Assembly: GCF_003173715.1 (NCBI RefSeq)
Contig: NZ_CP029550.1
Location: 5,627,501 to 5,691,500, forward strand
DNA length: 64,000 bases
DNA from: Methylobacterium durans
GTDB taxonomy: Bacteria; Pseudomonadota; Alphaproteobacteria; Rhizobiales; Beijerinckiaceae
Direction: 5' to 3'
Part shown: piece by piece, positions 7,572 through 24,484 of the stretch
Layout of the letters: each line of letters begins with the position of its first letter
How positions within the stretch are numbered: position 1 is the first letter of the stretch
The notes under the pieces: model-generated
Told to the model about the DNA's origin: nothing
Database searches by the model: none
What the model saw: only the letters and a program-made list of their open reading frames with translations
Position numbers and translations under genes: made by a program

Positions 7572-9011
7572 ATGTCCGACACCTACGACGTCCTCATCAT
7601 CGGCGCCGGGCCCGGCGGCTACGTCACGGCGATCCGCTCGGCGCAGCTCGGTTTCAAGACCGCGGTGGTCGATCGCGAGCACCTCGGCGGCATCTGCCTG
7701 AACTGGGGCTGCATCCCGACGAAGGCCCTGCTGCGCTCCGCCGAGATCTACCACTACATGCAGCACGCCACCGATTACGGCCTCTCGGCGGAGAAGGTCG
7801 GGTTCGACGCGGCCGCCATCGTCAAGCGCTCGCGCGGCGTCTCGGGCCGGCTCAACGGCGGCGTCGGCATGCTGCTCAAGAAGAACAAGGTCGACGTCAT
7901 CTGGGGCGAGGCCGCGATCGATTCCCCGGCCAAGGGCAACCAGCCGGGGCAGGTCACCGTCAGGGAGACGAAGCGCGCCGAGGCGCCGAAGGGGGCCAAG
8001 GGCGCGGGCACCTATCAGGCCAAGCACATCATCGTGGCCACCGGTGCGCGCCCGCGCGCCATCCCCGGCATCGAGCCGGACAAGAAGCAGATCTGGACCT
8101 ACTACGAGGCGATGGTGCCGGAGGCGATGCCGAAGAGCCTCCTCGTGATGGGCTCGGGCGCCATCGGCATCGAGTTCGCCTCGTTCTATCGCACCATGGG
8201 CGCCGAGGTGACCGTGGTGGAATTGCTGCCGCAGATTCTGCCGGTCGAGGACGCCGAGATCGCCGGGCTCGCCCGCAAGCGCTTCGAGAAGCAGGGCATC
8301 AAGATCCTCACCGGGGCCAAGGTGACCAAGGTCGAGAAGAGCGCCGATTCGGTGACCGCGACGGTCGAGGCGGCGGACGGCAAGTCCCAGACCATCACGG
8401 CGGAAAAACTGATCTCGGCGGTCGGCGTCGTCGGCAACATCGAGAACCTGGGCCTCGAGAAGCTCGGCGTGACGATCGACCGGGGCATCGTCGTCACCGA
8501 CGGGCTCGGCCGCACCAACGTGCCGGGCATCTACGCGATCGGCGACGTGGCCGGCCCACCAATGCTTGCCCACAAGGCCGAGCACGAGGGCGTCATCTGC
8601 ATCGAGACCATCAAGGGCCTGCACACGCACCCGATGGACAAGGGCAAGATCCCGGGCTGCACCTATTGCCAGCCGCAGATCGCGAGCGTGGGACTGACCG
8701 AGGCTAAGGCCAAGGAGCAGGGCTTCTCGGTCAAGGTCGGCCGCTTCCCCTTCGCGGGCAACGGCAAGGCGATCGCCCTGGGCGAGCCGGATGGGCTGAT
8801 CAAGACGGTATTCGACGCCAGGACCGGCCAGCTGCTCGGCGCCCACATGGTCGGGGCGGAGGTCACCGAGCTGATCCAGGGCTACGTCGTGGCGATGACG
8901 CTGGAGACCACCGAAGAAGAGCTGATGCACACGGTCTTCCCGCACCCGACGCTCTCGGAGATGATGCACGAGAGCGTGCTCGACGCCTATGGCCGGGTGA
9001 TCCACACCTGA
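7572..9011 (+). CDS. lpdA: dihydrolipoyl dehydrogenase (E3)
   Basis: This 479-residue flavoprotein reoxidises the dihydrolipoyl groups of the PDH complex with NAD+. It has the FAD-binding GAGPGG, the redox disulfide Cys42/Cys47 in GGICLNWGCIPT, an NAD-binding GSGAIGIEFASF, and the C-terminal active-site pair His458/Glu463 in FPHPTLSE. It is the last gene of the PDH cluster. Its final 126 bases, including the catalytic His and Glu codons, lie within a 128-base sequence repeated exactly at 26856-26983. The present 3' end was therefore probably supplied by the island that integrated here. Confidence 0.98.
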   Translation: MSDTYDVLIIGAGPGGYVTAIRSAQLGFKTAVVDREHLGGICLNWGCIPTKALLRSAEIYHYMQHATDYGLSAEKVGFDAAAIVKRSRGVSGRLNGGVGMLLKKNKVDVIWGEAAIDSPAKGNQPGQVTVRETKRAEAPKGAKGAGTYQAKHIIVATGARPRAIPGIEPDKKQIWTYYEAMVPEAMPKSLLVMGSGAIGIEFASFYRTMGAEVTVVELLPQILPVEDAEIAGLARKRFEKQGIKILTGAKVTKVEKSADSVTATVEAADGKSQTITAEKLISAVGVVGNIENLGLEKLGVTIDRGIVVTDGLGRTNVPGIYAIGDVAGPPMLAHKAEHEGVICIETIKGLHTHPMDKGKIPGCTYCQPQIASVGLTEAKAKEQGFSVKVGRFPFAGNGKAIALGEPDGLIKTVFDARTGQLLGAHMVGAEVTELIQGYVVAMTLETTEEELMHTVFPHPTLSEMMHESVLDAYGRVIHT

Positions 9012-9013
9012 TC
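8886..9013 (+). repeat. attL: 128-bp direct repeat at the lpdA 3' end
   Basis: Positions 8886-9013 are identical base for base to 26856-26983. Before 8886 and after 9013 the two copies differ, although partial similarity continues for about 45 bases downstream, around ACCAAA and ACAAGCTGTT. Left of the repeat is intact lpdA and right of it is island DNA. This is the structure left by site-specific integration. The exact crossover cannot be placed inside a perfect repeat. Confidence 0.93.
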
Positions 9014-9129
9014 TTTGGGTTGACCAAAAGCCTCGCTGGAACAAGCTGTTAACGGCAGCAGCCTAGCGGGGCTCAGTCTCTATGGTCAAGCCAGGGAGGG
9101 CGCTTGGTGCCTCTCTGAGCAGCCCGCCG

Positions 9130-9151
9130 TGTGCCAAGATTGTGCCAGCGA
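9130..9151 (+). repeat. candidate integrase arm site, left
   Basis: This 22-base sequence contains TGTGCCA twice, 11 bases apart, so the copies face the same side of the helix. It recurs with one mismatch at 26745-26766, near the other end of the island and in the same orientation. It lies about 120 bases inside attL. This layout suits arm-type binding sites for the integrase or an excision factor; no binding has been shown. Confidence 0.5.
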
Positions 9152-9252
9152 TAACGGTGAGGGAAGGGCGTCAGGTGACTGAAGACAAGCAATCCAACCA
9201 CCGCAGGTCGCGCTTCTGAACGCCAACCTCAGCTACTTGAGGAGCCCCAGGC

Positions 9253-9411
9253 TCACCGAGAGTGACGTGCGGCCCCCACAAGGCTTGTCGTCGCGATCAC
9301 ACAGCCGAGCCCGAGAAGGCAGAAGAAACCCAGGACGTGTGCCGGGCGCCCCCGTGCGAGAAGTACAGCCACAACCAGCAAGGTTATGAAAAGGCCAGTG
9401 AGTACGCTCAT
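9253..9411 (-). CDS. 52-residue predicted membrane protein
   Basis: The protein begins MSVLTGLFITLLVVAVLLA and has a second hydrophobic stretch (VLGFFCLLGLGCVIATTSLV), so two membrane segments are predicted with a short basic turn between them. The ATG at 9411 follows a strong GAGGAGAGG ribosome-binding site, which is the main reason to accept so short a gene. Function is unknown. A similar-sized two-helix protein is encoded at 17197-17352 in the same island. Toxin-like, holin-like or simply structural roles are all possible. Confidence 0.55.
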   Translation of the reverse strand: MSVLTGLFITLLVVAVLLARGRPAHVLGFFCLLGLGCVIATTSLVGAARHSR

Positions 9412-9506
9412 AGGGTCCTCTCCTCACATGTGCCTGGAGGAGCCTAGAGCCGCTTACGGCCAAGACAACTGCAAAGGTTAATAGCGGCCCACAGGCTGCC
9501 CACAGG

Positions 9507-9570
9507 TTATCCGCAGCCTATTCGCAGGGTGTAAAGGGCCTCTGTGGTGCTCCGGTCCCCGATATCCACA
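9507..9570. promoter_or_regulatory. cluster of DnaA-box-like nonamers
   Basis: TTATCCGCA (9507-9515), CTATTCGCA (9518-9526) and ATATCCACA (9562-9570) each resemble the DnaA box TTATCCACA within one or two changes, inside 64 bases upstream of the first island gene on the plus strand. Such nonamers arise by chance. The cluster is noted because the island also encodes a polymerase-like protein. Confidence 0.25.
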
Positions 9571-9645
9571 ACCCTATCGGTGCCGGTAACCGAACGTTAA
9601 CCCCGCAAGTGTGTTCTCATTCCGTTCTCAGATGGGAGCACATCG

Positions 9646-9879
9646 ATGCTGAAGGCTGAAGCGCTCGCTACCCCGGCCACGGAGGTTCCTGCTGGTCCGG
9701 TGGAGGAGATTGCCCAGGCGTACCTCAGGACAGCCTATGGCGACGCTGGGGTGGCCCTCAGGTGCGCCATCACGGATGCGCTCGCTAATCTGCTTGAGGC
9801 TGAGTGCCGGGAAAAGAACAGGGAACGCCTGATCAGCGTCGGGTACGTTCGGGTTGGGCTGCGCCGGATGCATCAGTAG
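9646..9879 (+). CDS. hypothetical protein (77 residues)
   Basis: This small, mostly helical soluble protein starts at the ATG at 9646 behind a GGGAG ribosome-binding site (GATGGGAGCACATCG). The middle is acidic to neutral (VEEIAQAYLRTAYGDAGVALRCAITDA, shown in parts) and the end is basic. No family was recognised. It is the first plus-strand gene inside the left end of the island, downstream of the DnaA-box-like cluster, a place where integrative elements often carry regulators. No DNA-binding motif is evident. Confidence 0.5.
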   Translation: MLKAEALATPATEVPAGPVEEIAQAYLRTAYGDAGVALRCAITDALANLLEAECREKNRERLISVGYVRVGLRRMHQ

Positions 9880-10222
9880 TCAGCATGGCACGCAGGCTTG
9901 GCAAGCGTGTCCACGCCGCAACAAGCGCCGTCCTAACGGATACATTCACGTACCACCTGGCACCCTGCGTATCCGGAGCGAAGAAAGCGGCGGTCAATGG
10001 GTAACCAGCTAAGGGTCTATCGTTGATGCGCTTTTCGGGCCGCACCATCCGTATGGCGATGGGCTGGAAAGGGTTAACCCACCTTATCTAGTACCATTCC
10101 GCACGGTCAACATAGGTTGATCCTGCCAAATTCATCATTCATATGATCGTTACGGCGCCTGATTCGTCTGGCCCCGGGTATAGTTCCACACAAATCCCAG
10201 TCCATATCTGAAAGGTCATTGA

Positions 10223-10483
10223 ATGGCCAGGTATTTCTTTGATGTTAGCGATGCCGATTTCACGACTTATGACTATGATGGTACTGAGTTTTTAGACTTG
10301 AATACTGCTTTGGACGAGGCGCTTCGTTCGGCTTGCGAGATTGCTGCCGACCAACCTCAGAGATATACTCTGAGAAATCTTGAGGTGCGCATCCGCGACG
10401 AATCGAGGAACGTTGTTTGTTCGTGCTCCGTCAAACTTTCTGTTGTGGGCCATGGTGCTAACAAGCTCCTCACAGCAGCCTGA
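10223..10483 (+). CDS. DUF6894-type small protein
   Basis: This 86-residue protein opens with MARYFFDVSDAD and ends its conserved part with VRIRDESRNVVCSCSVKLSV. This is the pattern of the small 'YFFD' family found in many copies in Methylobacterium and relatives, which has no known function. It is one of five family members in this window (also at 22024, 28245, 31335 and 35066). The coding sequence is clearly richer in A+T than the core genes, with codons such as TTA, TAT and GAT, consistent with acquired DNA. AAAGG precedes the ATG. Confidence 0.8.
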   Translation: MARYFFDVSDADFTTYDYDGTEFLDLNTALDEALRSACEIAADQPQRYTLRNLEVRIRDESRNVVCSCSVKLSVVGHGANKLLTAA

Positions 10484-10861
10484 ATCTACAATGACCGACT
10501 GCGAAATAGCTCTCCATGATCACTCGATCATCCTGCCGTTCTTGATAGTGGGGAGAGGATGATCTCTCAACATCACCCCGTGGCGCCATAGCCGAGCGAC
10601 AAGACAATCTGGGCTGATCCCTGGGCTTTGCCTTGGTGCTGCTGGTGGTCGAGCCTTAGTGAAGGGAAGTGGGCAATGAAGGAGGCGGTGTGGGGACCGG
10701 CTCTGCAACCATCAGCCCGTTCGGTCTAGCCTTTAGGTCACCCTGTAGTTGTCGGGCAACGCAGACCCGAACGTGCGCTCACTGACGTGGGGCAACCTTC
10801 GCTGAAACCGTCTGGTCAGCGCCCGCGTTTGGTGCGGCAATTCACACGACCGAGCACCGGC
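10484..10861. other. gene-free stretch in the island
   Basis: No convincing gene is visible. Short open frames on both strands lack good ribosome-binding sites. It presumably holds the promoter of the secreted-protein gene at 10862. Confidence 0.4.
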
Positions 10862-11275
10862 ATGATGCGTATCACCTTCGCGTTTGCAGCCCTTCTGATC
10901 GCCTCCGGAAGCCCGTTCGCAGAGGAGGTTCAGTACTACTGCGCGGAAGAAGGCAGGGTTGCACTTGCCCATCAAGGCAATGACACCGCACCCGTGAAGC
11001 AGGACGCGCAGCGGTTTAGCATCGACATTGATGACGAGACGGTGTTCATCAAAGATGCCTACACGGGTATATACCGCTGCGCCCCTATTGATGGTGCCGG
11101 TTCGAGTGCGTTGTATTGCCGGTCCCCGGACCACAGAACTGTGTTCACGCTGGATTACGGAAGCCAGAAGTTCTCATTGGCTCGCCTGAACACCAGCGAT
11201 GCTGCCCCTCCCTTCATGTCGACCGGTCAATGTTCCAAGCGGCAGGCAGCTAGCAACCCGCGCACGCCCGGCTGA
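10862..11275 (+). CDS. secreted hypothetical protein, paralogue of the pseudogene at 27097-27522
   Basis: This 137-residue protein has a signal peptide (MMRITFAFAALLIASGSPFA) with likely cleavage before EEVQYYC. The mature domain has four to five cysteines and the segments DETVFIKDAYTGIYRC and KFSLARLNTSD. No known family was recognised. A clearly related but nonsense-mutated copy lies on the minus strand at 27097-27522, outside the right attachment repeat. Start choice is between adjacent ATG codons at 10862 and 10865. A terminator hairpin follows at 11313. Confidence 0.7.
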   Translation: MMRITFAFAALLIASGSPFAEEVQYYCAEEGRVALAHQGNDTAPVKQDAQRFSIDIDDETVFIKDAYTGIYRCAPIDGAGSSALYCRSPDHRTVFTLDYGSQKFSLARLNTSDAAPPFMSTGQCSKRQAASNPRTPG

Positions 11276-11312
11276 GGGGAGTTGCGCTTGAACAGATGCT
11301 TTGAGCAACAAC

Positions 11313-11357
11313 ACCGATAGCAGCCCAGGATAACCCTGAGTCACTATCGGTTTTTTT
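11313..11357 (+). terminator. intrinsic terminator
   Basis: ACCGATAG (11313-11320) pairs with CTATCGGT (11344-11351) and is followed at once by a run of seven T. A smaller inner hairpin (CAGG/CCTG) sits in the loop. It ends the 10862-11275 transcript and lies against the end of the convergent gene at 11359. Confidence 0.8.
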
Positions 11358-11358
11358 C

Positions 11359-11652
11359 TTAGTCCCACGTCTCGGAGCCATCGGGGTTTATGGTGCTGAT
11401 GCCTCTCCGACGCTGCGGAGCTTCCTCAGGTGGAGCATCCAGATTGAGGAGCACACCCTGCCTGCCTCGGCGGTCCTGGGTCCACAGGTTACCCTGAGAG
11501 TCAGAAAAGCCTGTGGTCCCATTGGAGCACGAGAGATGGCCTCCGTACTTGATGCGATCCGCAAAGGAGAGCTGGGTAAACAGGAGAAAAACAGAGACGA
11601 ATGCTGCAGTCGCCTTCAAAGGAAAACTCCACACCCATGGCAGTTGGGACAT
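11359..11652 (-). CDS. secreted or membrane-anchored hypothetical protein
   Basis: This 97-residue protein starts at the ATG at 11652 behind GAGGT. Its N-terminal hydrophobic segment (residues about 10-31, KATAAFVSVFLLFTQLSFA) looks like a signal peptide. The mature part contains DRIKYGGHLSCSNGTTGFSD, then an Arg-rich stretch and a short acidic tail ending GSETWD. It resembles small DUF4124-like or beta-rich periplasmic proteins only loosely, and no family is claimed. The IS630-type element begins 62 bases upstream of the start and may have displaced its promoter. Confidence 0.55.
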   Translation of the reverse strand: MSQLPWVWSFPLKATAAFVSVFLLFTQLSFADRIKYGGHLSCSNGTTGFSDSQGNLWTQDRRGRQGVLLNLDAPPEEAPQRRRGISTINPDGSETWD

Positions 11653-11714
11653 GATACCTCTTCGGTGCTTCCGATTACAACATTGAAAGCATCGGCGGTT
11701 ATAGTACGACCTTA

Positions 11715-12884
11715 TACCAAGTCTCACTGATCAGCACTCATGAGCCCAGGTGCGTCGGCCGATGGAGACGATGTGCCAGGGCTCATCAATGAGCCTGTTC
11801 CAGGCATGGCAGCAGTGATCGACGATGTCGTCGTAGGAGCCGAAGATCCGGTTGCCGAGCCAGTTTTGGCGTAGAAACTGCCAGATGGCCTCGACCGGGT
11901 TCAGCTCAGGCGAGCGCGCCGGCAGCGGCATGAGGGTGAGATTGCCCGGCACGACAAGCTTCTTGGTGAGATGCCAGCCTGCTTGATCGAGCAGCAGGAC
12001 GGCGTGAGCGCCCGGTGTGACATGCTGGGCGATCTCGGAGAGATGATGGTTCATCGCCTCGGTGGTGCAGCGTGGCATGACGAGACCGGCGCCCTTAGCG
12101 AGTGCAGGGCAGAGCGCTCCGAAGATGTAGGCGGATTCGGTACGCTGATCCTTCGGAGCTGCCGGCCGTGTGCCGCGGCGTGCCCATCGCCGGGTGATGG
12201 TGTTCTTCTGGCCGACACGGGCCTCATCTGAGAACCAGATCTCTATCGGCTTGCCGCCGGTTGCCTGCGCGATCTCTGCCAGATGGGCCGGGAAGTCTTT
12301 TTAAAAACCTCCGCCGCCTGCAGATCCTGGGCGTGGTGGCGAGGCCGCGCCGAGAGCTTACGGAAGCCCATGGCGCGCAGGACGCGGCTCAGCGTCTGCT
12401 CGGAAACCGAGACACCGTGGTCCTCACACAGGATCTGGGCCAGATCGACCAGGCGCCAGCGCACCACACCGTGGGCAGCTGGCGTCGGGCCTTGCTCCAC
12501 CATGGCCCGCAGCGCCTCGCATTGGGCCGCATTCAGGCGCGGGCGCGCACCGGGCGCTTTGCCGTCGATCAGGCCGTCAGGTCCCCGTGTGTTGAAGGCC
12601 AGCACCCAATCGCGCACGGTCTGCAGCCCGACCCCGCCGATCTGCGCCGCCTCCGAGCGCGATCGGCCGGCATAGATGGCTGAGAGTGCCAGGAGACGGC
12701 GTGTCTGGGCTGGAGTCCGTGAGGTCTTGGCGAGCGCGCGCAGCCTCGGCGCATCGAAATCTGACCGGAGCGGCACGGGAGCGGCCATCACATCCTCCTC
12801 GGGCAACCACGCCCAGAGAAGGAATCACACCCGGGTTCGCTGGGCTACTCACCCCACGTGAGTCACCCTCACCGAGGACTGGTA
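11715..12884 (-). mobile_element. IS630-type insertion sequence, copy 1
   Basis: The element is about 1,170 bases long. Imperfect inverted ends begin TACCAAGTCTCAC at 11715 and TACCAGTCCTCGG (read from 12884 inward). TTA flanks both sides (11712-11714 and 12885-12887), consistent with the TA target duplication of the IS630/Tc1-mariner group. It encodes one transposase in two overlapping frames. It is related to, but clearly different from, the element at 25101-26260. Confidence 0.88.
11731..12806 (-). CDS. IS630-type transposase in two frames
   Basis: The N-terminal frame (from 12806) has two helix-turn-helix-like regions (GRSRSEAAQIGGVGLQTVRDW) and reads past FRKLSARPRHH to an out-of-frame end. 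The C-terminal frame, minus one relative to it, holds the DDE catalytic core with WFSDEA, LLLDQAGWH and PELNPVEAIW. The frames meet at 12295-12310, where the coding strand reads GTTTTTAAAAAGAC. A minus-one slip there would join them, as known for this IS group. A single missing base is the alternative. Confidence 0.82.
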
Positions 12885-12958
12885 TTAGTGTAACTTATTC
12901 ACAACAGTGCGTCTCGATCAATTATGCAGCAATGCAGCAGAGGCGGGGTCGATTTAGT

Positions 12959-14224
12959 TCAAGCAATCAATAGCCCCTTAGTTGCCCTAGGAAGCCCGCA
13001 GACAACCTTCGTCACTACAGGCAGCCTCGCTCCCACGATCTCCTCTGAAGCCGCCTCCAGGGCCCTCTGAGCAGCCTCCTGCTGACTCACCGCCACCATG
13101 AGCCCATCGTGCATCCCCAGGGCCACCACGCCCTGCATCATGAGCCGATCCAAGGCGCCGATCAGGATTCGGCTTTCGGTGTGCATCAAGGCGTAGCCCA
13201 CCGTGGTCTGGAACAATGGCGCAAGGGCTGGGTGCTTGGCTTCCAGGGCAGCCCTCAGGTGCTTGTGGTTCGTTCCAGGGGGCAGCTTCGCCTTGATCTC
13301 AGAGCAGTCAGCAGCACCACCAAACAGAAGAGCGCTGAAGCCGTTCTTCACGCCATCTCGGTGCAGATCGTTGTGGTAGCCGGGAAGGAAACCGGAAAGG
13401 TCATAGGCGTCGTCCTCAGGCATCTCCTGGCCCACATGGAGATAAGCAAGGCGGGCAAAGGCATTCTTGAGGTCGAGGTCAGCGACAGGCTCACCACCAA
13501 TGCGAAGGCCATCCCTGCGCTCGCGCTTTAGCTGCTGCCAGAACCCACCGAAGAGCCGGCCCCCGAGGTCCCACCGGACATCCTTACGGCTCAGCAGGGA
13601 GAACCGGCGCTGCATAGTGCGGTCCTCGGTGCAGACCTGAGGCGAGAGCCCATCGTCCACGAACGAGATATCAGCCTCTCTCAGGAACGCGTTGAGCTTC
13701 CTAAGCCACTCACGGCGAGCAATGGTCTCAGCAGTGTCGGTGTAATCGATCCACTCAGGAATCTTCCGCCACACTACTCCCTCGCTCGTGTGAGCCAAAC
13801 CCTTAGACTTGTGGCTGAGGATGATGACCTCTTCATTAGGGTCTCTGCCAAAATCCTCTATGGTGATGCTGTGCTGATCCACCAAAGATAGAAACCAGTC
13901 TCTTGGCTCTATCGTTGAGGTCTCCGATCTGTGGCGTCCCTTGGTTAGCTGGAGAATGTTTCCGTCTAGAAGATTGATGACCTTCCTGAGATTGGTGACA
14001 GCCAGCAAAGGGTGCTGGTAGCGAAGTCGCTTAGTCCCTGTGTTCATTGGAACCACAAGACGACCAGAGTCGGTAGGGCGAAGGACCATGTAGGCGAGAT
14101 TTGCAATGACTGCCTCGATAGCTCGATCATAGGCAGCCTGGGCTTTATCGTTTCTCTTGCGCTGCCTCTTGGGCTCAAGGTGGCTTAGGTGCGTCTTGGT
14201 CGATCCAATTAGGAGCTTCAGCAT
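12959..14224 (-). CDS. putative compact family A polymerase-like protein
   Basis: This 421-residue protein has three spaced motifs that match the palm and fingers of family A DNA polymerases and T7-like RNA polymerases. Motif A is VADLDLKNAFARLAYL (residues 247-262, metal ligand Asp251 or Asp249). A motif B/O-helix follows in RDGVKNGFSALLFG (Arg289, Lys293, Phe301-Gly302). Motif C is LGMHDGLMVAV (His372-Asp373). GGRLFGGFWQQL precedes motif A. No exonuclease or primase domain is visible, and the N-terminal 200 residues are not recognised. A good AGAAGG site precedes the ATG. The role is unknown; island replication, repair or defence are possible. Confidence 0.6.
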   Translation of the reverse strand: MLKLLIGSTKTHLSHLEPKRQRKRNDKAQAAYDRAIEAVIANLAYMVLRPTDSGRLVVPMNTGTKRLRYQHPLLAVTNLRKVINLLDGNILQLTKGRHRSETSTIEPRDWFLSLVDQHSITIEDFGRDPNEEVIILSHKSKGLAHTSEGVVWRKIPEWIDYTDTAETIARREWLRKLNAFLREADISFVDDGLSPQVCTEDRTMQRRFSLLSRKDVRWDLGGRLFGGFWQQLKRERRDGLRIGGEPVADLDLKNAFARLAYLHVGQEMPEDDAYDLSGFLPGYHNDLHRDGVKNGFSALLFGGAADCSEIKAKLPPGTNHKHLRAALEAKHPALAPLFQTTVGYALMHTESRILIGALDRLMMQGVVALGMHDGLMVAVSQQEAAQRALEAASEEIVGARLPVVTKVVCGLPRATKGLLIA

Positions 14225-14299
14225 CTCACCTTCTGCGACAAGCTGAAGTAGCCCCCTAAATGACCGGACACGGGCTCACGCTTGTGGAAGTGTGTGCCT

Positions 14300-14716
14300 A
14301 TGACCGATCCTATGGTGAGTTTTAACGATCCGCCCCGCGCCGAGCGCGTCGAGGTGATCACCTCCGTCCAGCGCCGGCGGCACTGGACCACGCAGGAGAA
14401 GGTGCGCCTCGTCGAGGAGACGTATCTGCCCGGCCAGTCTGTCTCGCTCGTCGCCCGCCGCCACGGGCTGAACGCCAACCAGCTGTTCACGTGGCGTCGG
14501 CTGATGGCGCGCGGCGCCCTCACGGCCGCCGGGGCCGGCGAGGAGGTGGTGCCAGCCTCCGAGCTTCGCGCTGCCCTGCAGCAGATCCGCGAGCTACAGC
14601 GGCTCCTGGGCAAGAAGACGCTGGAAACCGAGATCTTGCGCGAGGCGATGGAGCGGGTCGCCGCCCCCAAAAAGTTGCCGCTGCGCATGACCTCGTGGCT
14701 GGGGGACGGCCGGTGA
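14300..14716 (+). CDS. IS3-family transposase OrfA
   Basis: This 138-residue protein has an N-terminal helix-turn-helix ([18 protein letters not shown] through [17 protein letters not shown]) and a C-terminal leucine-rich coiled coil (about residues 85-120, [19 protein letters not shown]). This is the usual OrfA layout of the IS2-like group. The ATG at 14300 is preferred to one 18 bases earlier because the shorter form fits the family. Its stop overlaps the GTG start of orfB at 14713. Confidence 0.85.
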
Positions 14717-15569
14717 GCGCGGTGGCTTCGGCTTTGGGCTTATCGCGCCCGCACCTCGCCTCCTCCCGGCAGACGGCCCCGCCCGGAAGCCCATAGCGCG
14801 ACGCGGTCGTCCGCCTGCACCCGACGCCGAGCTGCTCGGCGCGATCCAGGCGCTCATCGCGGATCTGCCGACCTACGGCTATCGGCGCGTCCACGCCCTC
14901 TTGCGCCGGCAGGCCGAGCGGGACGGCCGGCCTGCGCCGAACGTGAAGCGCGTCTACCGAGTCATGAAGGCGCACGACCTCCTGCTTCAGCGACACGCGG
15001 GCGGAGCCGAGACGCGCCGTCATGAGGGCAAGGTGGCGGTGGCCGTCCGCAACACGCGCTGGTGCTCGGACGGGCTAGAGATCGCGGCGGAGAACGGTGA
15101 GAGGGTGCGGGTCGCCTTCGCGCTCGACTGCTGTGACCGGGAGGCGATGAGCTACGTGGCAACCACGGCGGGCATCACGGGCGAGGACGTCCGCGACCTG
15201 ATGGTGGCGGCCGTCGAGCATCGCTTCGGGCCAGTCAACCAGCTGCCGAGCCTGATCGAGTGGCTGACCGACAACGGCAGCTGCTACTTGGCCCGCGACA
15301 CGCGCCGCTTCGCTCGCGACCTCGGATTGGTGCCGAAAACGACGCCGCTGGAGAGCCCTCAGAGTAATGGCATGGCCGAGGCGTTCGTGCGGACCTTGAA
15401 GCGCGACTACGTGCGCGTCTCGATCCTGCCGGATGCTGAAAGCGTGCTGCGCCAGCTTCCCGTTTGGCTGGCGCACTACAACGACCTTCACCCTCATCGC
15501 GCGCTGGGCTACCGCTCGCCGCGCGAGTTCATCGCCCGATCAACCCAGGAGACCGTGTCCGGTCTTTAG
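14713..15569 (+). pseudogene. IS3-family transposase OrfB, frameshifted
   Basis: The GTG at 14713 overlaps the orfA stop and opens [14 protein letters not shown], the normal start of an IS2-like OrfB, but that frame stops at about 14794. The rest (PAPDAELLGAIQALIADLPT onward) continues in another frame to 15569. It contains the integrase-core residues in WCSDGLE, FALDCCDREAMS, LTDNGSCY and NGMAEAFVRTLK. The shift near 14755-14790 fits one missing base in a C-rich run. The element is either inactive or affected by a sequencing error. Confidence 0.75.
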
Positions 15570-15579
15570 GGGGCAACAA

Positions 15580-15732
15580 CACAAGCCAATGGTCCAGCCA
15601 TCGCTCCTTGTCTGGCTTGATTGGTTCTACGATCCCATCCTCATTGTCAGGATCGTTATTAGGCCCATAGGGACCCATAGCCTCTAGAGGGCTAATGCTA
15701 TCCTTAGGTATGTATCTACATGTTATATCCAT
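15580..15732 (-). pseudogene. short reading frame cut by the IS3 element
   Basis: The ATG at 15732 follows an AGGTGAA ribosome-binding site and reads 51 codons (MDITCRYIPKDSISPLEAMG onward, acidic) into the right end of the IS3 element. The element is 1,326 bases, a multiple of three. If it is removed, the frame continues through about 10 more codons (FSLSQKVRC) and stops at a TGA that overlaps the ATG of the polymerase-like gene. The original arrangement was therefore probably a small gene translationally coupled to that gene. No family was recognised. The lack of a target duplication leaves some doubt. Confidence 0.4.
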
Positions 15733-16028
15733 AAAGGTTCACCTCTAGGTACTGTATGGAAAGACGGTAAGAGAAAAGGGGATCACACGTGCGCTGTTGA
15801 TCTGATTGGACACATGCTCTGATGATATCTGTATGGAGAGGCCGTCAGTTGGCCCAGGATGCCTGTGGAGGCTGTATGGCGTTCACGTGCGACTTGTGGC
15901 GCTCCATGCCGATCAAGAGCCCTACAAGCCTTTTCTGCCGATTGCGGCTGTCGCGTTCAGGGTTGATCGAACAACGTCGAAGTGGGTCCCTATTGCGCGC
16001 CGATTGATTGCACGGGCTTTCCAGGCCC
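15733..16028. other. gene-free stretch upstream of the interrupted small gene
   Basis: This A+T-richer stretch probably holds the promoter of the minus-strand gene starting at 15732. Open frames on both strands here are short and have no good starts. Confidence 0.35.
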
Positions 16029-16175
16029 TCAGGAGCCCGCTTGAGCCTCTTGAGCAATCTTAGCAGCCTCGCCAGCATCCAGCGGGTAACTGGCGTCCTG
16101 AGGCTTCCCTGTGGGCGACTGGGCCACTTTCTGGGTCTGCAGTGCTTGCGTTCTACGGCAGCGTGCTTTCTTCAT
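16029..16175 (-). CDS. small basic protein (48 residues), hypothetical
   Basis: The ATG at 16175 follows AAGGAT and encodes a Gln/Ala-rich peptide that starts MKKARCRRTQALQTQKV and ends EAAKIAQEAQAGS. The basic first ten residues could contact nucleic acid. It is transcribed in the same direction as the polymerase-like gene and its coupled upstream frame, so it may belong to the same transcript. No family was recognised, and it may be chance coding. Confidence 0.35.
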   Translation of the reverse strand: MKKARCRRTQALQTQKVAQSPTGKPQDASYPLDAGEAAKIAQEAQAGS

Positions 16176-16578
16176 GGGCTATCCTTATTGCGGCATAATC
16201 CGATCCATCTGAGCACGAGTTGGCATGATAAGTCTGTCGGCCCGGCGTATCGGTTCGACCAGCAGATGCCTATGGATTACAGAAGCGTTTTGCTTTTGAT
16301 CAAGAGTGCAAGGACTATTAGTCCTCTGACAATGGCTCTTAAGCCTCTGGCCCAACACACTCAGGCTGGCTGAAAAAAATTTGCTGAGGAGGAGTTGGGG
16401 AGGACTAAGGCATCTGTCCTGGGCGGCCGTCACTCCTGCTGAAGCCTTGAGCGCCTAGGCCGCATAGTGAGCAACATCCGGGGACGTCCATTAGGCCCTG
16501 CCTGTGTGAGACACGCTTCACGCCCAACCTTCGCCGTCCAATAGAATGGTGTTGACGTTTCGGACGTGTCGTCTCACA
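16176..16578. other. gene-free stretch upstream of the serine recombinase
   Basis: No convincing gene was found. A minus-strand frame of about 80 codons (16185-16433) has weak start signals and unusual composition. The region likely holds divergent promoters for the recombinase and the minus-strand genes. Confidence 0.35.
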
Positions 16579-16601
16579 GTGTCTTTGACATCATCGGACA
16601 C
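16579..16601. promoter_or_regulatory. inverted repeat before the serine recombinase
   Basis: GTGTC (16579-16583) and GACAC (16597-16601) flank a 13-base spacer. A further GTGTC at 16566-16570 lies just upstream. The pair ends 23 bases before the recombinase ATG. Resolvases commonly bind dyads next to their own gene, so it is a candidate res subsite or operator. The arms are short, so chance is possible. Confidence 0.3.
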
Positions 16602-16624
16602 TTCAGGGGCCTTCGGTAGGGCAC

Positions 16625-17179
16625 ATGCTCATTGGCTACGCGCGCACATCGACCTTGGAGCAGGAAGCGGGCCTGGAGGCTCAGATAAGAGACCTCAGAG
16701 CTGTGGGATGCGAGAAGCTGTTCTCGGAGCAGACCTCCAGCATTGGGCCACGTAACGCCCTTGAGACCGCAGTGGAGTTCACGCGTGAGGGCGATACGCT
16801 GGTGGTGACGAAGCTGGACCGCTTGGCCCGCTCAGTGACCCACATGGGGACCATCATCGCTGCCCTGGCGGCAAAGGGAGTGGCCCTTCGCATCCTCAAC
16901 CTGGGCGTGGACACCGCGACACCCACAGGCAAGCTCATCCTGACCGTTATGGGCGGAATCGCTGAGTTCGAGCGGGAGATGATGCTGGAGCGGCAGAGGG
17001 AGGGTATCGCCAAGGCCAAGGCAGAGGGTGCCTACAAGGGCCGCAAACCGACTGCGCGGGCCAAGAGCGCCGATGTGCTGGCTCTTCATGGGCAGGGAAA
17101 GAGCCCCACCGAGATAGCCAAGGCTCTCGGGATTGGCCGGGCGAGTGTCTACCGCATCATCGAAGCTCAAGCGGCGTAG
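16625..17179 (+). CDS. serine recombinase (resolvase/invertase family)
   Basis: This 184-residue protein has the small resolvase/invertase layout. Ser9 in GYARTSTLEQEAGL is the expected nucleophile, and LVVTKLDRLARSV (about 59-71) and IAEFEREMMLERQREGI (about 112-128) are the family's catalytic and dimer-helix motifs. The C-terminal 45 residues form a helix-turn-helix (SPTEIAKALGIGRASVYRII). Such enzymes resolve cointegrates or invert segments. No invertible segment is obvious. The ATG at 16625 directly follows a short inverted repeat. Confidence 0.93.
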   Translation: MLIGYARTSTLEQEAGLEAQIRDLRAVGCEKLFSEQTSSIGPRNALETAVEFTREGDTLVVTKLDRLARSVTHMGTIIAALAAKGVALRILNLGVDTATPTGKLILTVMGGIAEFEREMMLERQREGIAKAKAEGAYKGRKPTARAKSADVLALHGQGKSPTEIAKALGIGRASVYRIIEAQAA

Positions 17180-17196
17180 GACTTGGAGACGCGATC

Positions 17197-17352
17197 ATGC
17201 TCGCCATCCTCTCACTCCTAGCTGCCCTTGCAGTTATGACCTTCAGCCAGAAGGCTTTTGGCGGTCCCTTCGCGTTCGTTGGGGTCGCGTATGTGAGCTT
17301 CTGTCTTTGGCTCTGCGGTGCCATCGTGCTTCGTGCCCTCGGGCTGTCCTAA
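17197..17352 (+). CDS. 51-residue predicted membrane protein
   Basis: The ATG at 17197 follows a GGAG site 17 bases after the recombinase stop, so the two genes may share a transcript. The protein has two hydrophobic segments (MLAILSLLAALAVMTF and FAFVGVAYVSFCLWLCGAIV) and a short basic end. No family was recognised. It resembles the 52-residue membrane protein at 9253-9411 in size and layout, but not clearly in sequence. Confidence 0.5.
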   Translation: MLAILSLLAALAVMTFSQKAFGGPFAFVGVAYVSFCLWLCGAIVLRALGLS

Positions 17353-17482
17353 GGAAGCTTCGGCAACAGCCTTGGCCTGTCCACAGAAGCCTCAGGACTG
17401 GCACGATTGCTCCCATTGCGGCGAAGCCCTGTGCGCTGCCACAGGGGGCTCAGGAGCCACCTATGGGCATCCCTGAGGCCAC

Positions 17483-17941
17483 ATGCGCATCTCTGCCACT
17501 CTGACCATCATCGGCACCTTCCTGGCCCTTGTTGGTGCGCCTGCTTCGGCCTCCACCATGTCTGCCGTCTGTAAGGACGTCCAAGGCCTTAGGGTCGATG
17601 ACACAGGCGAAAAGCTAGAGTTGGACCAGGACCGCCTTGTCGACGTGTCCTGGGCCTACACGGGCGACGAAAAGACGAACCAGGGCGCGCTCATCCTCCA
17701 GAGTTCCAAGATGGCTGGCGGGCAGCCTTCGGTGGAGAAGGCCCTTGTTCAGCGGATGGCGTCTGGCCACTGGAGCTTTGTGAGCATCCTAGGGGATGCC
17801 GTGTGGGTCCATTCGATCTACCCGGCTACTGGGCGGCTGCTGGTGACCCAGAGCACCAGCGGTGCAACCGGGGCTCTCTCGGGCAAGATGATGGCTGGCA
17901 AATGCAAGGTGACGATGAGGCAGGCTGGGCTGGTGACCTAA
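17483..17941 (+). CDS. secreted hypothetical protein
   Basis: This 152-residue protein has a signal peptide (MRISATLTIIGTFLALVGAP, likely cut after ASA). The mature domain begins STMSAVCKDVQGLRVDD and ends MAGKCKVTMRQAGLVT, so two cysteines may form a disulfide. The composition suggests a beta-rich periplasmic protein. No family was recognised. A hairpin follows its stop directly. Confidence 0.65.
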   Translation: MRISATLTIIGTFLALVGAPASASTMSAVCKDVQGLRVDDTGEKLELDQDRLVDVSWAYTGDEKTNQGALILQSSKMAGGQPSVEKALVQRMASGHWSFVSILGDAVWVHSIYPATGRLLVTQSTSGATGALSGKMMAGKCKVTMRQAGLVT

Positions 17942-17944
17942 ACG

Positions 17945-17966
17945 AAGACCCAATGTCGCGGGTCTT
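17945..17966 (+). terminator. hairpin after the secreted-protein gene
   Basis: AAGACCC and GGGTCTT form a perfect 7-bp stem around an 8-base loop, starting 4 bases after the stop codon. The next 15 bases are pyrimidine-rich but not a T-run, so this is a probable but weak terminator. Confidence 0.45.
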
Positions 17967-18363
17967 GCCTCTCGCTTTGTCTATGTCTATGCCGGGGTTG
18001 AGCCTGAGTCTGCACTGAGGCAGCGCTTCGAGAGATGAATACAGGCTGCCTGCGGCGGAGAGTGGATTGGCGTTGATCGGAGTCCTAGGGTCCCATCACG
18101 CTCTTTCTGGGTCGGAGCCCCACCCCCACCACTTTCAAATTTCGGCTAAAGCCTCGCGTTGTTGTTCAGCCTTCGAGCGTGTTGTGGTACTCACAGAAAT
18201 CTTAGGTCGGTACAATTGTAATGGTGTCTTGATAAGAGCGAAACATCGAGCATTGTTTGGACGGATGCACGCTCGGAAGCGCGACGACAGAGTGGGATAG
18301 TTGGTGCGGTGCCAAACGCTCATTAGGGCGCGGTTCTCGACGAGTCGCTTAACACTCTGGCAC
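17967..18363. other. gene-free stretch between convergent genes
   Basis: No gene is supported. A minus-strand frame of 62 codons (18135-18323) has no good ribosome-binding site and a composition unlike its neighbours. Confidence 0.4.
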
Positions 18364-19662
18364 TTACTTCAGCACCTCGGCTGGCTTCGGCGCAGGTGCT
18401 GCCGGCCCCCGTTGCGCGGGTTGCGGTGAGGTGGGCTGATCCGAGAGCTGCTGGCGGGTGTCAGCAAGCTTGCTCTGCGCATCCGCAAGTTCCTGACGCG
18501 TTGACTTCAGGCGCTCCTCAAGGGCTGCCAGTTCCTTGTTTCGCGAGGCCATGCCGTCATTGAGCGTTGCGAGTTGTGCCTGCGCCTCGGCTTGCCGCTT
18601 CTGGAGCGCCTCTAGCTCAGATGCTTGACGCTGGCGGTCGTCGCCCAGCTTCCTGATGCTCTGCTCAGTCTGACCGCGTTCAGTACTGAGGCGGTCGCGC
18701 TCTGCCTGCACACCGGCTACCTCCTTCTGCGCTGATGCGAGCCTTTCCTGGGCCTGCTGAATTTGCTGCTCGCGCTGCTTCAGGTCAGCGGTTCGCGCTG
18801 CAAGCTCTTGGCCGATCGCGGTGAGATCGTTACGCAGCTTCGTTTCCTGCTGGCGGACCTCTCCGAACTGGTCGCGTGCTTTCTGCGTCTGCTGCTCAGC
18901 CTGCCTACTCTCAGCGGACAGCCTTTCCCGATTGGCCGTAAGGACGGTGATGGCCTGCTGAAGCTCGGTCCGCTGTTGCGACAGCCGCTCAGCTTCCGCA
19001 CGCGCTCCGGTAAGGTCCCGCTGTGCCGCTTCCATCGCGGAGCGAGCCTGCCGTTGGTGCTGTTCGGCTTCTGAGATCGAAGCTCGCTTCGTTGCCGCTT
19101 CTTGTGAGAGGACCGCGATTTCGTTGCGGAGCTTGGCTTCCTGCTGACGGGCTTCCTCCAGCCGACGTCCACCCTCCGCTAAATCCTGCGTATGCGTCTT
19201 GGCCGTTTGCTCTGCGAGCGAGGCAGCGGCTTGGATGGTCTTCAGATTCTGCTCTGCCTGCTGCTGCTGCTTCTGCAAGTCGGCCAACCGCTGGGTTTGT
19301 CCGGCGGTTGTTTGCTCAATCTCAGCACTCTTTCGCTCGGCCTCTGTCCGCTGCTCCTCAAGGCTTGCGATTTGCGCCCGCGTCAGTGCGAGTGTCTGGT
19401 TGGCATCCTGGATGCGCCGCTCTCCGGTGACGATGCGGGTCTGTAACTCCGTCGCTGTGCCGGCCAGCGATTTGAGGCGGTCAAAGTCAGCCTGAATGGC
19501 TGCCTGTACTCCGAGGAGACCAGCAACCTGATCCTGATGCCGCCGCAGGTCCTCAGATCGAACGACGGCCAGCACGATTGTGGTGAGGAGAAGCAGCCCA
19601 GCGATAGCCGCAAGCGTCAGCGTAACCGGCCGGCGGAGTTCTGACCGAACGTCGAGTGCCAT
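18364..19662 (-). CDS. membrane-anchored long coiled-coil protein
   Basis: This 432-residue protein has one membrane segment near the N-terminus (residues about 13-33, VTLTLAAIAGLLLLTTIVLAV). Gln/Glu/Arg-rich heptad sequence follows from about residue 40 to 405, which should form a long coiled coil. The end is Pro/Ala-rich (PAPKPAEVLK). Internal segments such as RQQEAKLRNEIAVL and RQQETKLRNDLTAI are near repeats. No catalytic motif is visible. A scaffold or envelope-spanning role is plausible but unproven. Its promoter region is shared with the divergent hemerythrin gene at 19835. Confidence 0.75.
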   Translation of the reverse strand: MALDVRSELRRPVTLTLAAIAGLLLLTTIVLAVVRSEDLRRHQDQVAGLLGVQAAIQADFDRLKSLAGTATELQTRIVTGERRIQDANQTLALTRAQIASLEEQRTEAERKSAEIEQTTAGQTQRLADLQKQQQQAEQNLKTIQAAASLAEQTAKTHTQDLAEGGRRLEEARQQEAKLRNEIAVLSQEAATKRASISEAEQHQRQARSAMEAAQRDLTGARAEAERLSQQRTELQQAITVLTANRERLSAESRQAEQQTQKARDQFGEVRQQETKLRNDLTAIGQELAARTADLKQREQQIQQAQERLASAQKEVAGVQAERDRLSTERGQTEQSIRKLGDDRQRQASELEALQKRQAEAQAQLATLNDGMASRNKELAALEERLKSTRQELADAQSKLADTRQQLSDQPTSPQPAQRGPAAPAPKPAEVLK

Positions 19663-19834
19663 GGATTTTCTCGCAAGATGGCAGGGGAGCCTTGATTAAC
19701 GCGATGCAGTGGTCGGAAGCTCCGCGTTTAGGCACATCCTTCAGCACGCTTAAGGGACCGGCCTGTTGCAATGCGGGGTGCCGGAACGCTGACCGGTCGC
19801 GGAGGTTGGGAGGTACTACTTACAGGAGCGAAGC

Positions 19835-20965
19835 GTGGACCTTTGGCGATTTATCGAGCGAGATCACGAGAACATCTCGCAGCTCATCCGAGACATTCCC
19901 TATGCGCTGAACGGTCCCGGGGTGGTCCGGAGCAGAGAGCGCCTTCTCAGCGACCTCATCGGTGAGCTTGAGGCCCACTCTAAGGCGCTGGAGGCCAGCC
20001 TCTATGCGCCCCTGCGCCAACACGAGAAGACCGCCAAGCTCGTCACGGACCTGCATCGTGAACACGGCGCGTTCATGAAGCAGCTCGGTGCCCTAGCGAA
20101 ATATCGGCGCAAAGGCTCAGAGGGCTGGCTCAACGCTTTTGAGGACGCGACCTTCCTGGTTGACCAGCACCTGCACAGGCACGCGCACGAGTTGGTCCCG
20201 CCTGCCCGGGCCCTACTCTCCTCTGAGGAGATCGAGGCTGCCACGCGGGCCTATGTGCGGGCGAAGGTGAAGGTGCTGAAAGCTCGTAGGGGTGTGCTGG
20301 GTAGGCTCGGCGCTGAGGAGGTTGCTCTGATCGCAACTGTCGGCGCGGTCGCTGCGGGTTTGGGCTTCCTCGCTTGGCGCACTGGGCTGCTACGAGGGGT
20401 TGATCTGCCCGGCCTTGGCATCCGTGGTGCCGGCAGGCAGGGGCATGCGGCCTCCGCTAGAAACCCTCAGCGGCACCTCGATGACAACCCCTTCTCAGCC
20501 ATGTTCCTGCGGATGTCTGCTGAGGAGGCCCAACAGCAGGAAGCCACCGGCGGCGGCACACTCTGCACGTTCGATCTGAAGGGCCGTTCCTTGCGGCGGG
20601 ACGTTCTGCCGGTCCTTGAGGAGGCGAACCGTGGATGGCTGGAGCACGGCTATCAGGTTTACCTTGAAGACAAGACGCTGACGAAAAGCCGCGACCGCGA
20701 GGCAGACCGTCCAGCGCTTGCGTTCCAGATTGCCAAAGCAACGCTGCCGCGCGATCTCGTTGCTGCTCAGACCTTTGGGTTCTCCTTCGAGGCCGACAAG
20801 GGCAGCCGCAATGTGAGCTTCGCCGTTCACGATCCTCATTCGAGCGAAGGTGCTCAATGGTCTGGTCCGCAGCTTGGCGCTTCGGAAGGAAGTGAACTCA
20901 CGTCTGACCAACTACAACAGGTGCTGGGATACGCACTACGCTTGGCTCTTTCCAAGCCTGTGTGA
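19835..20965 (+). CDS. hemerythrin (HHE) domain protein with a membrane segment
   Basis: This 376-residue protein begins with a four-helix hemerythrin-type region. His11 in ERDHENI, EAHSKALEASLY, HREHGAF and the final DQHLHRHAHELVPP give the spaced His/Glu residues expected for a di-iron or metal site. A hydrophobic segment (about residues 169-187, VALIATVGAVAAGLGFLAW) anchors it. The C-terminal 180 residues form a separate unrecognised domain with FDLKGRSLRRDVLPVLEEAN. Such domains bind oxygen or act in redox and iron sensing. An AGGAG site precedes the start at 19835. Confidence 0.72.
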   Translation: MDLWRFIERDHENISQLIRDIPYALNGPGVVRSRERLLSDLIGELEAHSKALEASLYAPLRQHEKTAKLVTDLHREHGAFMKQLGALAKYRRKGSEGWLNAFEDATFLVDQHLHRHAHELVPPARALLSSEEIEAATRAYVRAKVKVLKARRGVLGRLGAEEVALIATVGAVAAGLGFLAWRTGLLRGVDLPGLGIRGAGRQGHAASARNPQRHLDDNPFSAMFLRMSAEEAQQQEATGGGTLCTFDLKGRSLRRDVLPVLEEANRGWLEHGYQVYLEDKTLTKSRDREADRPALAFQIAKATLPRDLVAAQTFGFSFEADKGSRNVSFAVHDPHSSEGAQWSGPQLGASEGSELTSDQLQQVLGYALRLALSKPV

Positions 20966-21055
20966 TTAAGGCCGGCCTGTGAGCTGCAATAGGATCGGAA
21001 ACCGTAGCGGCCTAGCAGCGTTAGAGCGGGACGTTCGTTTGTAGGAGTAACATCG

Positions 21056-21325
21056 ATGATGAAGACGCTTGCTACTGCTGCTGCGCTCTCTTTCGCGCTG
21101 TCCGGCGCTGCCCTTGCTCAGACCACTGGCGGCGGCTCTGCGGAGAAGAACCTCAACAACCCTGGCAGCGTGAAGAGCAACGCTGAGAAGGGTATGCCGA
21201 GCCGTGACGTGCCGACTACCCTGGGCACTGCTCCTGGAGCGGCTACAGCCCCAGCCGGCAGCACCGAGCGCAACCTGAACAACCCGGGTAGCGTGAAGAG
21301 CGACGCTGAGAAGGCTGGGCGCTGA
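21056..21325 (+). CDS. small secreted protein with a duplicated NLNNPGSVKS motif
   Basis: This 89-residue protein has a signal peptide (MMKTLATAAALSFALSGAALA, cut before QTT). The mature part contains the same motif twice, as EKNLNNPGSVKSNAEK and ERNLNNPGSVKSDAEK, separated by about 32 residues rich in Ala, Pro and Thr. Similar short secreted proteins are common in Methylobacterium-type genomes, but I do not know a function. A GTAGGAG site supports the start at 21056 or the next ATG at 21059. Confidence 0.75.
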   Translation: MMKTLATAAALSFALSGAALAQTTGGGSAEKNLNNPGSVKSNAEKGMPSRDVPTTLGTAPGAATAPAGSTERNLNNPGSVKSDAEKAGR

Positions 21326-21469
21326 TGCTCTAGCGAGCGAATCAGGCTGCCTTGAGTTTCGAAACTTCGCATCGCACCACGAGTTATTGCAGTGCGGTGC
21401 CTTGTCGTGTCCCCCCTTCGCTGGGCACCGCGTCCCTGCTTATGGGCAGGCGTTTCCTCCCAAGACTTC
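21326..21469. other. sequence between the NLNNPGSVKS gene and the terminator module
   Basis: Nothing coding is supported here. The last 30 bases carry GCGTTTCCTCCC and GACTTCGGG, which recur before the second terminator at 22858. Confidence 0.35.
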
Positions 21470-21496
21470 GGGCCGTCCTTCGGGGCGGTCCTTTTT
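21470..21496 (+). terminator. intrinsic terminator, module copy 1
   Basis: GGGCCGTCC pairs with GGGCGGTCC (two G-T pairs) around a TTCG tetraloop and is followed by five T. A near copy, including about 25 bases of upstream sequence, lies at 22858. The bases from 21497 to 21669 hold no gene. Confidence 0.75.
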
Positions 21497-21669
21497 GTTT
21501 GGTAAGCTTCCTAGCTGCCAGCCTCTCGATCTAATCCGATTCAGCCGGGGTTCAGGTCGCCCGAGCCCTACTCCGTTGCCGTAGAAGGGTTTATTATCGC
21601 CAAGCACTGAACGGCATCCTCATCGGAAAGCCACGGTGTAGCGGCGCTCGCCTAGGATGAGGTGAGGAG

Positions 21670-21903
21670 ATGTTGGCAGATACACCGGACGACACGATCC
21701 AGCCCGAGGAACATCTGCTTCATCGCTATCGTGCCTTTGTCCTCGATGCAGACGGTAGGGTCCTGCGCTCCGATCCGATTGCAGCACAGGACGATGAAGC
21801 TGCCCTCAATCTTGCCAGCGCCAGGGTAGGCAGCCATTCGGTCGAACTCTGGGATGGGATGCGCTTCATCGAGCACCTCGATCCACACGGCCCTACCAAA
21901 TAG
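21670..21903 (+). CDS. small protein of the ELWDGxRFIEH type, copy 1
   Basis: This 77-residue protein reads HRYRAFVLDADGRVLRSDPI, then an acidic helix (AAQDDEAALNLASARV), then VELWDGMRFIEHLDPHG. A clear paralogue with the same order is encoded on the minus strand at 23478-23699. The layout (beta strand with D-G turn, helix, WDG-RFIEH) recalls the small DUF6894 proteins but lacks their YFFD start. Function is unknown. The start at 21670 follows GAGGTGAGGAG. Confidence 0.7.
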   Translation: MLADTPDDTIQPEEHLLHRYRAFVLDADGRVLRSDPIAAQDDEAALNLASARVGSHSVELWDGMRFIEHLDPHGPTK

Positions 21904-22023
21904 GTCAGCGCGCCACGGAACGATTGCTGGATGTTAGCTTTTGCTCTCTACCGGCTTTGGTGGGAGCTTAAGCAGTGTCGCGCGAAGCCTCAAGCCAAGC
22001 CATTGTTTTGGTAGCGTAAGGCC

Positions 22024-22323
22024 GTGACGCGCTTCTTCTTTGACCTGCATAGCGATAGCTTGTCCGCATGGGACGATGAGGGTCGAGAGTGCAGTGACGC
22101 TGACGAGATACTGCGCCACGCACTAAGGATGCTGGATGATCTGCCTGAGGCCCCGACCCATGGAAGCAGCCCCGCCGTCGTTTCCGTCCACGATGTTAGC
22201 GGACAGGTAGTGCTGACTGCGACCCTCAAGCCGAACTCGGAGCCGAACCTGAGGTGGACAAAGGAAGGACCTTCTGAGGGTGTGTCCACTGTGCCATTAC
22301 CTCCCAAGTCTTCAGCGCTTTAG
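22024..22323 (+). CDS. DUF6894-type small protein
   Basis: This 99-residue protein opens (from a GTG at 22024, behind AAGG) with TRFFFDLHSDSLSAWDDEGR and continues VVSVHDVSGQVVLTATLKPN, the family's usual strand pattern. The last 25 residues or so (Pro/Ser-rich) extend beyond the typical end. It is one of two family members inside the intact island. Function is unknown. Confidence 0.75.
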   Translation: MTRFFFDLHSDSLSAWDDEGRECSDADEILRHALRMLDDLPEAPTHGSSPAVVSVHDVSGQVVLTATLKPNSEPNLRWTKEGPSEGVSTVPLPPKSSAL

Positions 22324-22399
22324 CGGCTCCCCTTTGGACACCCCGCTCTGTGTGGTTTGGTTGACGGCCAGTTAAGCCGGTTCCGAGCCGAGTGCTCAG

Positions 22400-24470: not shown

Positions 24471-24484
24471 CTACCAAGAGCAAA

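Follow-up and report, generated by a model that had tools for sequence, protein, structure and literature searches.

What is the compact protein encoded at positions 12959-14224 of this stretch of Methylobacterium durans DNA, and which process does it serve? The window, by which we mean the whole 64,000-nucleotide stretch analysed (contig NZ_CP029550.1, positions 5,627,501 to 5,691,500), holds there, on the minus strand, an open reading frame (ORF) of 421 codons, whose 421-amino-acid product we call P0001 and to which all residue numbers refer. An initial annotation, which did not give the strand, had recognised the motifs of a family A polymerase and had proposed an undescribed activity for the protein. 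The motifs are confirmed and the novelty is not: the gene is of the transposon-virus polymerase (TV-Pol) or divPolA2 type, an already known kind of enzyme, here as a copy disrupted by an insertion sequence (IS). We propose, with a probability of about 0.72, that it is the polymerase of an integrative element of approximately 18 kb that has integrated at the lpd 3' end, and that it would prime and copy this element.

We assembled the relatives of P0001 into a cluster (cluster A) of 88 members in 83 loci; 78 of the members have at least 390 amino acids. Alignment A4, to which all fractions of 78 refer, contains P0001 and 77 of those relatives; L103, the second site in the genome of L102, was omitted. 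The gene, its motifs and its interruption are located as follows.

12959..14243, minus strand: larger (C-terminal) piece of the TV-Pol gene after the IS; the ORF 12959-14224 begins at an internal ATG
13094..13120, minus strand: motif C, residues 369-377; H372 in 78/78, D373 in 77/78; model strands 368-370 and 374-378
13319..13360, minus strand: O-helix motif RxxxK, residues 289-302; R289 in 78/78, K293 in 78/78; model helix 285-300
13439..13486, minus strand: motif A, residues 247-262; catalytic Asp251 at 13472-13474, D in 78/78
14239..14243 and 15582..15586, no strand: target duplication GCTTG, 5 bp, flanking the IS at 14244-15581
14244..15581, plus strand: IS element splitting the TV-Pol gene, 1338 bp; orfA 14282-14716 (PF01527), orfB 14901-15569 (PF00665)
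15582..15732, minus strand: 5' piece of the TV-Pol gene beyond the IS; start ATG at 15732

Motifs A, O-helix and C stand in the order expected of family A, as the initial annotation had stated. Asp251, Lys293 and His372-Asp373, whose conservation it had asked about, are kept at the frequencies listed above, and this includes the two aspartates that it expected the homologues of a true polymerase to retain. Mean column identity is 24%; only thirteen columns are invariant, including R223, D251, R289, K293 and H372, and D272, E350 and D373 are each kept in 77/78 rows. A chance origin of the pattern is unlikely, since the catalytic D251, R289, K293 and H372 are among the invariant columns. R223 lies within model strand 221-226 and, in a comparison by eye, corresponds to the invariant arginine of TGR in the host DNA polymerase I (Pol I). 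One relative (L045:9836-11179) has His-Asn in place of the His-Asp of motif C and may be inactive.

The suggested comparison of folds agrees with this assignment. An AlphaFold2 model of P0001 built from A4 has a mean predicted local distance difference test score (pLDDT) of 94.0 and a predicted TM-score (pTM) of 0.90. Strands carry motifs A and C, helix 285-300 carries RxxxK, and helix 165-183 comes before the palm. Foldseek returned 17 PDB matches at E<=1e-3 (best E=1.3e-4), and the 50 PDB matches listed are all Pol I-type family A polymerases (Taq, Bst, Aquifex, apicoplast and others), including 1u45 and 2hhq, whose titles do not name the enzyme and which we take to be of this type. Query TM-scores are low (0.28-0.37), which would follow if the correspondence is largely confined to palm and fingers. 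Viral structure models yield 32 matches at E<=1e-3, led by 11 full-length proteins of 400-450 amino acids (E from 2e-19 to 9e-15; TM-scores reach 0.73). Three of the 11 are named, and all three belong to phages; a "DNA polymerase" of Rheinheimera phage Barba31A ranks first (E=2e-19). A model of the Zamilon virus DNA replication protein falls below these 11 (E=3.2e-5), and a phage RNA polymerase is found at rank 38 (E=2.6e-3). On the evidence of the model, P0001 is a family A-type polymerase with palm and fingers.

These features, together with the gene neighbourhood, are those of the TV-Pols defined by Iyer, Abhiman and Aravind in 2008 (PMC2579912), so that the proposal of an undescribed kind is not supported. 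By that description a TV-Pol consists of a minimal core of superfamily A: two aspartates, a finger aspartate plus RxxxK, a hairpin arginine and a thumb of two antiparallel helices, with no nuclease (PMC2579912). The P0001 family shares the palm pair (D251 78/78, D373 77/78), the finger residues (D272 77/78, R289 and K293 78/78), the hairpin arginine (R223 78/78), the lack of a nuclease and a length of 400-600 amino acids. The mobile-element neighbours reported for TV-Pols are gamma-delta resolvase, lambda-type integrase, IS630/IS605 transposases and restriction-modification genes, prim-pol activity was predicted for those in resolvase/integrase elements, and Methylobacterium nodulans and M. 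populi appear in the published alignment (PMC2579912). Resolvase, lambda integrase and RNase H-fold transposase are all present in our window. What sets the present copy apart from the TV-Pols of Iyer and co-workers is that it is split by an IS and that no D5 helicase is seen nearby among the families listed.

The phage branch of the same type was reported in 2024 as divPolA2, a novel PolA of Barba phages without a homologous thumb; the report mentions TV-Pol as background, and its divPolA2 section draws no link to bacterial islands (PMC11348598). Our family profile matches Barba1A gp034, presumably the divPolA2 of that report to judge from phage and motifs, at 83.8 bits with all motifs aligned, and because of this match divPolA2 and the P0001 family appear to be one family. 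As far as the divPolA2 section goes, both combine a palm with an unusual N-terminal domain and have no exonuclease, and divPolA2 stands outside the PolB replication context of the phage; they differ in that divPolA2 belongs to a phage genome and P0001 to a chromosomal integrative element.

Sequence databases give little sign of this kinship. P0001 matches no exonuclease or other Pfam domain, its sole match being at chance level (E=0.24), which bears out the initial remark that an exonuclease is missing; nor is a nuclease family found among the 25 listed of the 30 Pfam families matched at E<=1 by the 78 members. PF00476 (DNA polymerase I) gives no match to P0001 at E<=10, and neither phmmer with P0001 nor the family profile finds any PDB sequence at E<=10. 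Across the 78 members, Pfam and NCBIfam matches are weak and scattered over one to three members (best E 0.0031 and 0.01), and residues 60-400 of P0001 match a single PHROG, phrog_4756 (E=1.1e-23), which has no assigned function. Annotation based on PDB, Pfam and NCBIfam would therefore miss the family.

The ORF is the 5'-truncated part of a longer gene, a fact that escaped the initial annotation. The interrupting element (14244-15581), which we take to be of the IS3 family, has inverted ends of 25 bp that are 84% complementary, and three other full-length copies in the genome are listed as 100% identical to it. It separates about 50 first codons and the native start from the ORF, and the end of the 5' piece (KPDKERWLDHWL) looks, by eye, like the N-terminal sequence of L004 and other relatives. 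The remark that the protein has only 421 residues is thus right for the ORF, and the compactness is in part an artefact of the insertion: 76 of the 77 relatives in A4 are longer (median 443), 72 have at least 425 amino acids, and the closest, at L033 (9923-11260, Methylobacterium sp. Leaf99, 51% identical), has 446.

The location in an island, also proposed at the outset, can be given precise boundaries. The features of the element and its attachment site are the following.

7572..9011, plus strand: lpd, pyridine nucleotide-disulphide oxidoreductase (PF07992, E=4.1e-68), presumably dihydrolipoamide dehydrogenase; attachment site at its 3' end
8886..9059, no strand: left attachment repeat, 174 bp, 94% identical to 26856-27029, 128 bp of it exact
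9014..28992, no strand: stretch missing where a related genome (G021, L135) has the equivalent site
16625..17179, plus strand: small serine recombinase (resolvase), intact, belonging to the resolvase cluster of TV-Pol loci (PF00239, E=5.7e-39; cluster B profile, E=1.9e-69)
24539..25120, minus strand: tyrosine integrase, C-terminal piece (PF00589, E=1.8e-26; cluster E profile, E=1e-59)
25117..26177, minus strand: transposase genes between the integrase pieces, which we take to be of the IS630 type (PF13358, E=7.3e-26; PF13592, E=6.6e-20)
26245..26730, minus strand: tyrosine integrase, N-terminal piece, adjoining the right repeat (cluster E profile, E=5.7e-35; weak Pfam Int_N, E=0.0024)
26856..27029, no strand: right attachment repeat, 17,970 bp from left repeat start to right repeat start
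28993..29077, no strand: third copy of the lpd 3' end, incomplete, 82%

The final 126 bp of lpd (8886-9011) are repeated exactly at 26856-26981, and the TV-Pol element accordingly spans 8886-26855, that is, 17,970 bp. An empty site is observed in G021, where the match through window position 9013 joins directly the match from 28993; the other site examined, in G005, is uninformative because its downstream gene order differs. The G+C content is 60.7% between the repeats, against 69.2% to the left of the element and 71.1% to the right of 29100. The third lpd-end copy suggests the remnant of a second tandem insertion. About 2 kb (26984-28992) lie between the right repeat and this copy and are probably the remnant of another insertion; the ORF 28838-29317 on the minus strand resembles by eye a fragment of an integrase C-terminus and suggests an older element. 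In two other genomes a second copy of the lpd 3' end occurs about 20 kb away (G015, 94%) and about 31 kb away (G022, 88%), and the lpd 3' end (8886-9059; G015:C367, G022:C22) looks like an insertion hot spot.

A second TV-Pol element in this genome (L116) has its TV-Pol and its integrase each split by IS630-type genes, with the resolvase intact, and the pair that interrupts that TV-Pol is nearly identical to the one at 25117-26177. Both TV-Pols found in the genome, and both adjoining integrases, are therefore interrupted by insertion sequences, and for this reason the element is probably immobile here. The best-supported role, and the most likely one, is that of a primase-polymerase which the intact gene would supply to its element. 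In the intact element, the tyrosine integrase and the resolvase would move and resolve the element, and the polymerase would prime and then extend DNA strands through a two-metal palm active site, acting on the excised element or on a single-stranded copy that has arrived in a new cell.

Linkage to recombinases is common in the family. The genome search gave matches in 47 of 149 genomes, the present one included (42 of the same genus and 5 from elsewhere in the order); a pattern search of GTDB confirmed 95 loci, of which 80, mainly of Proteobacteria to judge from their titles, were kept, and 3 more came from IMG/VR. Because many flanks end at contig ends and genes were called by a simple script, the neighbour counts should be read as approximate minimum values. 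The resolvase cluster occurs in 52 of the 83 loci, a large tyrosine integrase cluster in 51 and another tyrosine integrase cluster in 11. The resolvase lies upstream on the same strand in 44 of the 50 placements listed within seven genes; the resolvase of our window, unlike that of most relatives, is on the strand opposite to the TV-Pol gene. Type I restriction, GmrSD and TIR effector genes are also present at TV-Pol loci. At E<=1e-3, P0001 matches no phages and 3 plasmids in the phage and plasmid collections. A Rhodanobacter relative (L088) matches 122 phages at E<=0.01 (115 of Rheinheimera, 7 of Vibrio), over 39-46% of its length among the matches listed.

A further frequent neighbour, protein D, occurs in 37/83 loci, and 34 of the 37 D genes are immediate same-strand neighbours of the polymerase gene. 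D is modelled as helical, has an invariant C-C-C-H motif of zinc type, and shows no PDB match at E<=1e-3; given the helical model and the lack of a match, we rejected its identification as a single-stranded DNA-binding protein (SSB) with an oligonucleotide-binding (OB) fold. Its identification as a detached piece of the polymerase was likewise dropped (hhalign E=0.59). Iyer and co-workers described a stand-alone helical gene beside TV-Pol, plus a predicted zinc domain (PMC2579912), and D may by inference be equated with one or the other.

Several relatives depart from the common form. The longer proteins L027-L030 (571-716 amino acids in L027-L029) match P0001 only around residues 217-382 and carry a long C-terminal tail; their motif C reads HDSF, which we take to be the form found in T7 RNA polymerase. 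Proteins L026, L031 and L032 are TV-Pol-like and end, by eye, in an XRE-type helix-turn-helix, supported by Pfam in L031 (HTH_31 E=6.3e-6, HTH_3 E=5e-5). L102 and L103 are two distant sites on one Rhodobacteraceae HTCC2083 scaffold with TV-Pols of the same length and similar next neighbours, which suggests a recent duplication or transposition. Besides its polA, the related genome G007 has a second, unusual PF00476 match (G007:C2:412333-413409), with two stretches in one 1047-amino-acid frame.

Which nucleotides the enzyme would use is a separate question. The initial annotation had held that a preference for deoxynucleotides or ribonucleotides could not be assigned from the O-helix, and the family supports this caution: the residue at +4 from the O-helix lysine is never Phe in 78 sequences, nor is it Tyr (N 44, S 20, Q 8, A 3, other 3). 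Glu at motif A +5 is likewise found in 0/78 (G 20, A 17, F 16, others), and O-helix +8, the position of Pol I Tyr766, is Phe in 49/78 and Tyr in 2/78. The Pol I rows of alignment A8, which contains 11 of the 14 Pol I loci, keep the equivalents of both Glu710 and Phe762. P0001 resembles the host DNA polymerase I in palm, fingers and motif order, and differs from it in having no detected exonuclease and neither of these two residues (0/78 each); the host polA itself lies elsewhere (G000:C1:1875721-1876866).

CCPol, bound to MP, makes primers de novo in vitro, and was in 2020 the only TV-Pol relative that its authors, in the part of their paper that bears on this, knew as characterised; it keeps Pol I Glu710 and Phe762 (PMC7581432). 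The CCPol type was extended by Rice in 2023 to PolA-SSB pairs in Bacillota (PMC10061031). As those papers present them where they treat these systems, CCPol-MP of SCCmec and the PolA-SSB pairs share with P0001 an exonuclease-free family A core and an integrative element with a serine recombinase. Unlike in those systems, an OB-fold partner was not found here, nor a helicase operon among the neighbour families listed, the frequent partner being D. Since both ribonucleotide-rejecting residues are at 0/78, the nucleotide choice of CCPol is not transferable to the P0001 family.

A T7/mitochondrial-type RNA polymerase or an RNA primase, transcribing or priming the element with ribonucleotides, is an explanation that we consider unlikely. 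The missing filter does not show that ribonucleotides are used; the 50 PDB matches listed are all DNA Pol I types and include no RNA polymerase, and no promoter-recognition domain was identified. A role in defence of the island rather than in replication is improbable. The loci do carry restriction-modification, GmrSD and TIR effector genes, 2/78 members weakly match RTasPolA, a PADLOC model of a DRT system (best E 0.0015), and Rice, in discussing PolA-SSB pairs, names defence as one possibility (PMC10061031); P0001 itself, however, matches no PADLOC family at E<=0.1, and recombinases are the commonest neighbours whereas defence genes vary from locus to locus. That translation from the internal start still yields the 421-amino-acid product, and that this serves the host as a free-standing polymerase, is more improbable again: the catalytic core is complete and without an internal stop, yet the full IS has cut off the native start with the codons that follow it, and the second TV-Pol of the genome is also split.

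Five results weigh against a TV-Pol that primes and copies its element. The sections of the cited literature that deal with these proteins report no activity for the TV-Pol branch of P0001. In Ma-LMM01, the sole Iyer-listed carrier phage tried, the family profile finds no TV-Pol (best E=0.083). A proof of Pol I kinship from sequence failed, hhalign against 11 Pol I domains giving a probability of 1% and a non-significant E=0.052. The partner gene D was found neither in the window nor beside the second TV-Pol copy. Finally, a D5-type helicase is not among the 25 commonest families of 107 and of 96 Pfam families (144 neighbours of at least 300 amino acids); such a helicase is reported as linked or fused in a viral and prophage subset of TV-Pols only (PMC2579912). 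The failure of the comparison with host Pol I indicates that the kinship is deep, and the case for it is built on the model, the invariant motifs and the literature instead of sequence matches. The observations comprise the predicted fold class, the conserved active site, the element boundaries, the recombinase linkage, the empty site and the IS disruption; polymerisation, priming and a role in replication we infer.

A high-scoring lead is in this way settled as a broken copy of a known and little-studied kind of enzyme, and the element that carries this TV-Pol is delimited by attachment repeats and an empty site. Furthermore, the divPolA2 proteins of phages are linked by sequence and fold to the polymerases of bacterial islands. 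The residues that exclude ribonucleotides, kept in CCPol, are at 0/78 here, which makes the choice between DNA and RNA primers testable for this branch. We may speculate, with considerable doubt, that the proteobacterial resolvase-linked TV-Pols and the phage divPolA2 together constitute a single group of family A primases that lack a deoxynucleotide filter and would start chains with ribonucleotides, or with either kind, while the adjacent D grips the template. If this is true, filter-less primases with D would represent a further solution to priming beside DnaG and AEP, unlike that of CCPol with its OB-fold partner.
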